From Tepidimonas alkaliphilus (lineage in GTDB: Bacteria > Pseudomonadota > Gammaproteobacteria > Burkholderiales > Burkholderiaceae_C), in assembly GCF_007556595.1 (NCBI RefSeq), contig NZ_VJNB01000004.1:62001-126000 (forward strand): DNA of 64,000 nucleotides, in the 5' to 3' direction. A program made the position numbers and the translations under genes. Shown piece after piece: positions 2,397-17,239 of the stretch. Numbering within the stretch: position 1 is the stretch's first letter; every line of letters starts with the position of its first letter. The notes beneath the pieces are model-generated. The model saw only the letters and a list, made by a program, of their open reading frames with translations. It was not told the origin of the DNA and did not search any database.

Positions 2397-2405
2397 TGCT
2401 ACATT
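2397..2405 (+). promoter_or_regulatory. Candidate extended -10 promoter for the aro leader
   Basis: TGcTACATT matches an extended -10 element (TG, one base, then a TATAAT-like hexamer). No good -35 is seen. The expected start of transcription falls at or next to the A of the leader-peptide ATG at 2412, so the leader peptide may be translated from a leaderless mRNA. Inference from sequence only. Confidence 0.4.
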
Positions 2406-2411
2406 GATAGT

Positions 2412-2480
2412 ATGCGTTCGCAAGGGTTTGGCTACGGCTACTTTTGGTTCTCTGGCCCCACCGACGGCCGAGAGGAGTGA
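2412..2480 (+). CDS. Aromatic leader peptide controlling DAHP synthase
   Basis: A 22-codon open frame begins at ATG 2412 and ends at TGA 2480. Its middle reads GFGYGYFWFSGP: three Phe, two Tyr and one Trp among eight residues, with Tyr-Phe-Trp-Phe consecutive. This is the hallmark of a leader peptide whose translation senses charged aromatic tRNAs. It is followed 32 nt later by a strong terminator hairpin and then by the DAHP synthase gene, the first committed enzyme of aromatic amino acid synthesis. The Thr-Asp-Gly codons right after the aromatic run contain ACCGACGG (2460-2467), which can pair with the terminator's left arm. Too short for standard gene calling. Confidence 0.85.
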   Translation: MRSQGFGYGYFWFSGPTDGREE

Positions 2481-2512
2481 AGTCGCCCAAGTCAAGCCCT
2501 CCCCCATCTCGC

Positions 2513-2545
2513 AACCGTCGGTTCCCCAACCGACGGTTTTTTTTT
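2513..2545 (+). terminator. Attenuator terminator hairpin upstream of aroG
   Basis: A perfect 11-bp stem (2513-2523 with 2528-2538) closes on a CCCC loop and runs into nine T (2537-2545). CCGTCGGT (2515-2522) in the left arm can pair instead with ACCGACGG (2460-2467) inside the leader peptide frame, which would be the antiterminator. The two structures exclude each other, as in trp/phe-type attenuation. When aromatic tRNAs are charged the ribosome reaches the leader stop, masks 2460-2467 and lets the terminator form. When it stalls on the Tyr-Phe-Trp-Phe codons the antiterminator can form. Confidence 0.85.
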
Positions 2546-2573
2546 GCCGCGCTGAGCGCAGGAGAACCGCACC

Positions 2574-3710
2574 ATGAGCCCAAGCCCCAGCAAAGCCAGC
2601 CTCGCCGAGGCGTGGTACGTCCATCCGGCCGACCGAACCAGCCTGACCGACGACCAACGCATCGAGGACATCACCGTGCTGCCGCCGCCCGAGCACCTGA
2701 TCCGCTTCTTTCCGATCCGCGGCACCGCCATCGAGACCCTGATCACCCACACCCGCCGCGCCATCCACCAGATCCTGCACGGCAAGGACGACCGGCTGCT
2801 GGTCATCATCGGCCCGTGCTCGATCCACGACCCGGCCGCCGCAATGGAATACGCGCGGCGCCTGAAGGAGCAGCGCGACCGCTTCGCCGACCGGCTCGAG
2901 ATCGTCATGCGCGTCTATTTTGAAAAGCCGCGCACCACGGTGGGCTGGAAAGGGCTGATCAACGACCCCTACCTGGACGAGAGCTTCCGCATCGACGAGG
3001 GCCTGCGCATCGCGCGCCAGCTGCTGATCGAGATCAACCGCCTGGGGCTGCCGGCAGCCAGCGAGTTCCTTGACGTCATCAGCCCGCAGTACATCGCCGA
3101 CCTGATTTCGTGGGGGGCGATCGGCGCGCGCACCACCGAAAGCCAGGTGCACCGCGAGCTGGCCTCGGGCCTGTCGGCGCCGATCGGCTTCAAGAACGGC
3201 ACCGACGGCAACATCCGCATCGCCACCGACGCCATCCTGGCCGCCAGCCGCCCGCACCACTTCCTGTCGGTGCACAAAAACGGGCAGGTGGCCATCGTGC
3301 GCACCAAGGGCAACGCCGACTGCCACGTCATCCTGCGCGGCGGCAAGCTGCCCAATTACGACGCCGACAGCGTGGCCATCGCCTGCCAGCAGCTGGCTGA
3401 CGCCAAGCTGCCCGCGCGCGTGATGGTGGACTGCAGCCACGGCAACAGCCAGAAGCAGCACGAGCGCCAGGTGGACGTGGCGCGCGACGTCGCCGCCCAA
3501 GTGGCTGGCGGCTCGCAGCGCATCTTTGGCGTCATGGTCGAAAGCCATTTGCGCGCCGGCGCGCAAAAGTTCACCCCGGGCAAGGACGATCCGGCCAAGC
3601 TCGCCTACGGCCAAAGCATCACCGACGCTTGCATCGACTGGGACACCTCGGTGCAGGTGCTGCAAATGCTGGCGGAGGCGGTGACGGCGCGTCGCGCCCG
3701 CCGCGGCTGA
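2574..3710 (+). CDS. aroG: 3-deoxy-7-phosphoheptulonate (DAHP) synthase, class I
   Basis: Condenses phosphoenolpyruvate and erythrose 4-phosphate to DAHP, the first step of the shikimate pathway, in the cytoplasm. The 378-residue protein is a class I AroF/G/H-type enzyme (E. coli enzymes are about 350). Diagnostic segments are IGPCSIHDP near residue 80, EKPRTTVGWKGLINDP near 115-130, IGARTTESQVHRELASGL, and the C-terminal DCSHGNSQK and GVMVESHL blocks. The start follows an AGGAG site 9 nt upstream. Expression is probably set by the leader-peptide attenuator at 2412-2545. Which aromatic amino acid inhibits the enzyme allosterically cannot be told here. It appears to be a single-gene unit. Confidence 0.96.
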   Translation: MSPSPSKASLAEAWYVHPADRTSLTDDQRIEDITVLPPPEHLIRFFPIRGTAIETLITHTRRAIHQILHGKDDRLLVIIGPCSIHDPAAAMEYARRLKEQRDRFADRLEIVMRVYFEKPRTTVGWKGLINDPYLDESFRIDEGLRIARQLLIEINRLGLPAASEFLDVISPQYIADLISWGAIGARTTESQVHRELASGLSAPIGFKNGTDGNIRIATDAILAASRPHHFLSVHKNGQVAIVRTKGNADCHVILRGGKLPNYDADSVAIACQQLADAKLPARVMVDCSHGNSQKQHERQVDVARDVAAQVAGGSQRIFGVMVESHLRAGAQKFTPGKDDPAKLAYGQSITDACIDWDTSVQVLQMLAEAVTARRARRG

Positions 3711-17052: not shown

Positions 17053-17061
17053 CTCTCCAGC

Positions 17062-17173
17062 CTCTCGAGGAGCGTTGCAGCGCTGCACAGGTGAATGACA
17101 CGGCGTCAGGCTCGAGACGGCTGCCGCCCGCGTCATCGGATGCGCCGCGGCGATGCTGGCAACGACGCTCACC
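17062..17173 (+). promoter_or_regulatory. SAH riboswitch upstream of ahcY
   Basis: The conserved core of the S-adenosylhomocysteine riboswitch is present: CTCGAGGAGCGTTGC (17064-17078), CAGGCTCGAG (17107-17116) and GCAACGACGCTCAC near 17159-17172. CTCGAG 17064-17069 pairs with CTCGAG 17111-17116, and GAGCG-TTGC pairs with GCAACGACGCTC with one bulge. SAH riboswitches precede ahcY in many beta- and gammaproteobacteria and turn expression on when SAH accumulates. Immediately downstream CCACCGGCG (17173-17181) can pair with CGCCGGTGG (17205-17213), a possible expression platform before the ribosome site at 17227-17232. Confidence 0.9.
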
Positions 17174-17239
17174 CACCGGCGCGTGGCGTGAGCTTGCAAG
17201 CCCCCGCCGGTGGCCCCCTCAAAGCGTAGGAGTCACCGC

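Follow-up and report, generated by a model that had tools for sequence, protein, structure and literature searches.

A candidate leaderless peptide-leader attenuator with phenylalanine, tyrosine and tryptophan codons upstream of aroG in Tepidimonas alkaliphilus and its relatives

How is the flow into aromatic synthesis adjusted in a bacterium whose genome appears to lack the regulators familiar from E. coli? The question is raised by the region upstream of aroG in Tepidimonas alkaliphilus, which lies in the 64,000-nucleotide stretch of DNA analysed here (the window). In E. coli, control of the first shikimate step involves TyrR, TrpR and three isoenzymes. TrpR and TyrR regulons have been reconstructed in gammaproteobacterial lineages, as described in passages of PMC5343134. 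In the 2.46-Mb genome that holds the window neither TrpR (PF01371) nor a TyrR-type protein (TIGR04381) was detected by searches that both find the E. coli control. A count of DAHP synthases in the same genome gave one AroG-like match and no match to the class II enzyme. A second PF00793 match above the cut-off was considered as a DAHP synthase and rejected, as it is a KDO-8-phosphate synthase above the TIGR01362 cut-off, and the statement that a single DAHP synthase is detected in the genome therefore stands.

It was proposed in the original prediction, made from the letters alone, that a peptide-leader attenuator lies before the DAHP synthase gene. Conserved codons, covariation of both the competing pairing and the terminator, and a fixed link to the gene all support this proposal, and we put at about 0.9 the probability that aroG is controlled by transcription attenuation of the trp/phe leader type, mediated by the ribosome. 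The features of the locus are as follows.

2397-2405, + strand: extended -10 element TGCTACATT (TGC-TACATT), six bases 5' of the leader ATG; predicted transcription start at or beside 2412
2412-2480, + strand: leader peptide open reading frame, MRSQGFGYGYFWFSGPTDGREE; ATG at 2412, TGA at 2478-2480, 22 codons; predicted to be leaderless
2439-2450, + strand: likely control codons Tyr-Phe-Trp-Phe (codons 10-13), from the consensus across relatives' leaders
2448-2474, + strand: putative 1:2 protector hairpin, UUCUC (2448-2452) with GAGAG (2470-2474), from predicted folds of the window
2460-2467, + strand: segment 2, antiterminator 5' strand ACCGACGG, within the leader open reading frame; pairs with 2515-2522, from covariation
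2513-2545, + strand: intrinsic terminator of 11 bp with loop CCCC and nine T (hairpin 2513-2538), from covariation and the fold of 2475-2549
2515-2522, + strand: segment 3, CCGTCGGT, common to the antiterminator and the 5' arm of the terminator
2574-3710, + strand: the regulated gene, an aroG-type class I DAHP synthase (PF00793, 324 bits; TIGR00034, 539.8 bits)

Clustered end-product codons are thus found in the leader, an intrinsic terminator lies between the leader and aroG, and a segment just 3' of the control codons is, by sequence and covariation, able to form an antiterminator that excludes the terminator. In the proposed mechanism transcription would begin at the leader ATG or next to it, and the leaderless 5' end would be loaded with a ribosome. 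When charged Phe, Tyr or Trp tRNA is scarce, the ribosome would stall at the Tyr-Phe-Trp-Phe codons and leave 2460-2467 free to pair with 2515-2522, in which case no terminator would form and aroG would be transcribed. When all three amino acids are plentiful, the ribosome would reach the stop codon at 2478 and cover or crowd segment 2, the terminator would form, and transcription would end near 2545. Given the usual ribosome footprint, segment 2 would be free when the ribosome is stalled at the control codons, and covered or directly adjoined when it has reached the stop codon; among the relatives 11-23 nt, with a median of 14, separate the last aromatic codon from the antiterminator core. 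We infer that stalling and read-through operate here in response to a shortage of aminoacyl-tRNA, and that each of the three amino acids would contribute its share.

The leader proved to be as predicted, with three Phe (codons 6, 11 and 13), two Tyr (8 and 10) and one Trp codon (12), including the Tyr-Phe-Trp-Phe run. When 2200-2573 was shuffled 2000 times with its dinucleotides preserved, no + strand open reading frame had six aromatic codons in nine, the best being five in nine, in 3 shuffles. Furthermore, among the 785 open reading frames with 10 or more codons that the two strands of the window contain, the leader was unique in having six aromatic codons in nine within its last 45 residues. 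The aromatic cluster is therefore not that of a chance open reading frame. A longer leader of 96 codons, open in the same frame from an ATG at 2190, was rejected, since conservation and the fixed distance to the -10 element begin at the ATG at 2412 and since the longer frame would overlap the start of an open reading frame on the opposite strand.

An alignment of aroG upstream regions had been suggested as a check for conserved aromatic codons, and these were indeed recovered. A protein scan of named genomes, of which the best 80 loci were kept, gave 78 loci with upstream DNA (L030 and L068 had none), and 63 of these 78, in addition to the window, had an aromatic leader with a terminator-like stretch 3' of it. 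The terminator filter was a pattern (GG, then a T tract), and hairpins were scored separately. Left out were 11 loci without an aromatic open reading frame, three with a weak one that were set aside by hand (L060, L073, L076), and L067, in which a leader is present and a terminator was not found in the stretch read. Leader-bearing loci of this set include Comamonadaceae, Rhizobacter, Rubrivivax, Burkholderia, Caballeronia, Massilia and their relatives, and also Xanthomonas, Stenotrophomonas, Dyella and one Devosia metagenome-assembled genome. A convincing leader was absent from 14 of the 78 loci among the best 80, including those of three Polynucleobacter, two Cupriavidus, Thauera, Azoarcus, Methylotenera and Dechloromonas; the leader is present in another Cupriavidus locus, L071. 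In the three Polynucleobacter loci (L024, L026, L031) and the two Cupriavidus loci (L021, L034) the aroG protein is 76-77% identical to that of the window and no aromatic leader precedes it, making these loci natural comparisons for the loss of attenuation. With four identical duplicates removed from 126, the searches together yielded 122 distinct leaders.

A covariance model built from a 45-row alignment gave one strong match in the window's own genome, at aroG. In the family the model matched 146 of 150 genomes (131 of the 133 of good quality), with a single match per genome in 144 of the 146 and second matches, away from aroG, in the other two. In the order sample 89 of 300 genomes were matched at E 0.01 and 75 still at 1e-4; in the class sample 16 of 369 were matched, of which only seven, the strong ones, lay at aroG; and in the phylum sample 35 of 299 were matched at E 1e-4. 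Among the loci inspected, the element adjoined aroG in 29 of 30 from the family (the remaining one lies at a contig edge), in all 27 that the order search added and in all 13 phylum loci that were fetched. Eleven of these 13 are from outside the window's class and, by elimination, would be Alphaproteobacteria. Nine weak matches of the class sample (L121-L129, E 3e-4 to 9e-3) were not at aroG, and nine second or weak matches (in G054, G086, G748, G653, G629 twice, G776, G528 and G762) had, by eye, no DAHP synthase downstream; matches above an E of about 1e-4 are therefore mostly chance or other elements.

When the presence of the leader was mapped on a tree, for which 155 distinct proteins had been thinned by hand to 84 DAHP synthases, the label was strongly clustered and required 6 changes, 3 of them forced by well-supported branches, versus 13.2 for shuffled labels. 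The labels of L055, L067, L091, L137 and L147, which had been lost to the duplicate or terminator filter, were corrected by hand. A single old origin of the leader followed by a few losses is possible.

Two other kinds of element were noticed away from aroG. In a genome of the same class (G435, locus L124) a leader containing ...NFYYFSSRFFFGRSG... and a terminator stand, by eye, before a likely chorismate mutase/prephenate dehydratase, and this element is probably a Phe attenuator of pheA. In two genomes of the same order and another family (L164, on the minus strand of G629, and L166 in G762) a Tyr-Phe-Tyr-Trp-Tyr leader with a terminator-like stretch was seen by eye ahead of the gene for an uncharacterised protein of some 200 residues, the G629 copy of which has no Pfam match; this gene, whose function is unknown, may be attenuated in response to aromatic amino acids.

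Which amino acids are sensed was approached through the codons of the 122 distinct leaders. Phe was present in all 122, Tyr in 120, Trp in 95 and all three in 93; since Trp is missing from 27 leaders and Tyr from two, not every leader could sense all three. When 115 leaders were lined up backwards from their last aromatic codon, the consensus was Y-F-W-F (Y 57%, F 78%, W 51%, F 75%, the last position being aromatic by construction), and it sits directly 5' of the antiterminator strand. (For these counts, one leader of the 122, L040, had no terminator detected by the script, though one is visible, and six of the other 121 had no core motif.) It may be that the attenuator works and senses one or two amino acids, mainly Phe, with the other aromatic codons being minor, an alternative to which we give a substantial chance, though one short of even. 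The universal presence of Phe beside a Trp found in only 95 of 122 leaders fits such a restricted response, as does the Phe-Tyr-Phe leader aroR of Corynebacterium glutamicum, which, according to passages of the papers cited below, responds to Phe limitation and not to Tyr. However, Trp and Tyr each have a fixed position of their own, occupied in 51% and 57% of the 115 leaders respectively, suggesting selection for each, and the single DAHP synthase detected in the genome serves all three products.

The leaders also differ from their genes in codon choice. TTT makes up 64% of Phe codons in the leaders of the 122 loci versus 15% in the cognate aroG genes, and TAT 41% of Tyr codons versus 20% (the genes being counted over their first 300 codons in 121 of the 122 loci, with L014 left out). 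Slower codons or less structure could be the cause of this preference.

That the leader may be leaderless was also part of the original prediction, which placed the start of transcription at or next to the leader ATG on account of the extended -10 element. This position is backed by a fixed distance and by the lack of a Shine-Dalgarno sequence. The pattern TR-N-TANNNT, picked after the sequences had been seen, has its end 6-8 nt 5' of the ATG in 73 of 122 leaders, and at any other offset out to 59 nt in at most one. A Shine-Dalgarno-like motif was found 5' of 2 of 122 leader starts, versus 90 of 108 aroG genes, for which any in-frame start was accepted (a generous count), and 266 of 2440 random intergenic positions; the aroG gene of the window itself has AGGAG at 2560-2564. 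A scan of the window for sigma-70 consensus promoters that requires a -35 box returned no promoter and no -35 box here, so the promoter claim rests on the extended -10 element and its conservation. These sequence features point towards leaderless translation of 2412-2480. Several loci outside the class also have, by eye, a -10-like element near the ATG. The leaders of Burkholderia and Oxalobacteraceae have no -10 element beside the ATG and no Shine-Dalgarno sequence, and a TATA-like element was seen by eye some 30-45 nt upstream; leaderlessness is therefore not general.

The RNA half of the device was examined by covariation. In the window the 11-bp terminator hairpin is followed by nine T (2537-2545), the first two of which are paired with AA, and ACCGACGG and CCGTCGGT are complementary octamers, both as had been predicted. 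In a first alignment (45 of 64 rows, taken to thin near-copies) 93.3% of antiterminator cells were paired versus 88.7% in shuffles, with 16 doubly changed cells versus 6.6 +/- 1.8. In a second alignment (24 rows, including some from another class, and with L007 kept though visibly misaligned at the terminator) the values were 93.5% versus 87.2% and 9 versus 2.0 +/- 1.2. The terminator had 28 doubly changed cells versus 10.2 +/- 2.2. Both pairings hence covary above shuffles in double changes, as a test for covarying stems had been proposed to reveal. These shuffles ignore relatedness; slid controls, in which relatedness is kept, scored far lower in all three counts, with a register derived from the window that favours the true one. 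Further pair types were not in excess in the first alignment, 187 of 500 shuffles being as high for the antiterminator and 91 of 500 for the terminator. RNAalifold, run on the first alignment, returned the terminator alone, which is expected as the helices compete.

For the 1:2 protector hairpin, the count on the alignment showed no covariation above shuffles, though the fixed register of the alignment may hide it because the strands shift between families. Compared with synonymous recodings, the mean z of this hairpin was -0.5 and it was below the mean in 87 of 121 leaders, a small bias that weakly hints at a protector helix at 2448-2474.

Selection for pairing is also suggested by how the antiterminator strand is read. 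Of 115 leaders, 56 have the core strand in frame 2, 54 in frame 0 and 5 in frame 1, and since it is read in all three frames, it is the RNA and not the tail of the peptide that is selected, the tail being free to change. In a relative of the same genus (G024, locus L162) segments 2, 3 and 4 are CCGGCGG, CCGTCGG and CCGGCGG, and in the window CCGACGG, CCGTCGG and CCGACGG, so that one position is G-U in the relative and A-U in the window in both competing helices. Relative to L162, the A-U pair costs a change from Gly to Asp in the leader. Two loci outside the class (L175, L176) have another linked change, AGCGG with CCGCT; the order of the changes at both places is one that we infer. The mutually exclusive pairings thus appear, from the sequences compared, to be under selection at the RNA level.

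As the terminated leader RNA would be about 134 nt long and leaderless, it or the peptide might also act in trans, like the rnTrpL and peTrpL products described for the Sinorhizobium meliloti trp attenuator in passages of the papers cited below. We consider this unlikely, as outside the aromatic run the peptide varies freely, even in its reading frame.

A search of Rfam had also been suggested. In the window, Rfam 15 at gathering threshold gave no family at the leader locus, and a scan of ten loci to E 10 gave nothing near threshold, with Trp_leader, the E. coli family RF00513 (as named in a portion of PMC4046766), not listed. Phe_leader (RF01859) scored 23.7 and 23.5 bits at two of ten relatives, versus a cut-off of 55, and was not among the matches listed for the window's own locus (L082). 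Elsewhere in the window, a SAH riboswitch (RF01057) was found at 17061-17177 on the + strand, with 51.6 bits for a cut-off of 37. A metabolite riboswitch or T-box, rather than a translated leader, might be proposed for the aroG locus because the predicted leader fold is stable (z -5.5 for 2412-2549); this is very improbable, as no Rfam family lies there at gathering threshold, the matches that ten loci gave at low threshold fall well short of the family cut-offs, and what is conserved are codons and attenuator strands. That the hairpin simply terminates an upstream transcript, beside a short open reading frame that arose by chance, is hardly credible, for although intrinsic terminators often follow genes, the upstream open reading frame with a plausible start (by eye, 1531-2196) is on the - strand, so that the terminator does not end an upstream message, and the leader, the pairing and the link to aroG are conserved together, with an aromatic cluster that none of the 2000 shuffles matched. 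The divergent open reading frame encodes 221 amino acids with a signal-peptide-like start (by eye) and has no Pfam or NCBIfam match.

The attenuation mechanism that we favour is classical. Like trpL and pheL of E. coli, the aroG leader is a peptide leader with an antiterminator that competes with a terminator, whereas trpL and pheL each sense a single amino acid and precede other genes. In the ilvGMEDA and thr leaders of E. coli one leader senses several amino acids of a branched pathway; unlike the element in the window, these respond to branched-chain amino acids or Thr and Ile, and likewise precede other genes. In the original prediction an aro leader sensing three amino acids was called much less familiar than leaders for Trp or Phe only. 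This stands in part: a DAHP synthase leader is known, as the aroF gene of C. glutamicum has the leader aroR with Phe-Tyr-Phe (passages of PMC11802643 and PMC4046766, with Neshat 2014 cited there), and those passages mention no Trp. By description, aroR resembles the window in having an aromatic-codon leader before a DAHP synthase gene and ribosome-mediated attenuation, and differs in being actinobacterial and in responding to Phe alone. The trpL leader of S. meliloti is likewise a leaderless peptide at the first transcribed AUG; unlike the aroG leader it has to do with Trp only, lies before trpE(G) and also acts in trans (passages of PMC7298713 and PMC10117765). The uORFC-13-1 motif before aroF of Acholeplasma, in the portion of PMC8632094 that describes it, combines a terminator with an upstream open reading frame that has one or more Phe codons, likewise ahead of a DAHP synthase gene, but belongs to another phylum and is a prediction only. 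The closest in kind are aroR of C. glutamicum and the leaderless trpL of S. meliloti.

In the open-access literature we found no description of an aroG leader element in Proteobacteria; subscription papers could contain one, among them the study of proteobacterial attenuators by Vitreschak (2004), known to us as a citation, as could an attenuator web resource cited in a passage of PMC1173090. Passages of PMC2965389 and PMC4833913 say nothing on aroG. With no description in this literature and no Rfam match, the element would be a newly recognised attenuator of a known kind, one that combines features known separately and is unusually well conserved.

As it is absent from Rfam yet found in nearly every sampled genome of the family, the element is a candidate Rfam family for annotation. 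The engineering of aromatic production could make use of it, and attenuation on leaderless mRNA could be studied in it under natural conditions of sequence. The finding bears on how Proteobacteria without TyrR-type control set the flux into aromatic synthesis, and the candidate answer for Burkholderiales and relatives in the phylum is one attenuator and one DAHP synthase for all three products. Tentatively, at a little under even odds, the element may be an ancient leaderless integrator that acts on the entry enzyme of the shikimate pathway according to how far the tRNAs for Phe, Tyr and Trp are jointly charged, has been kept with the class I DAHP synthase in at least two classes of Proteobacteria, and may replace repression of the TyrR/TrpR type.
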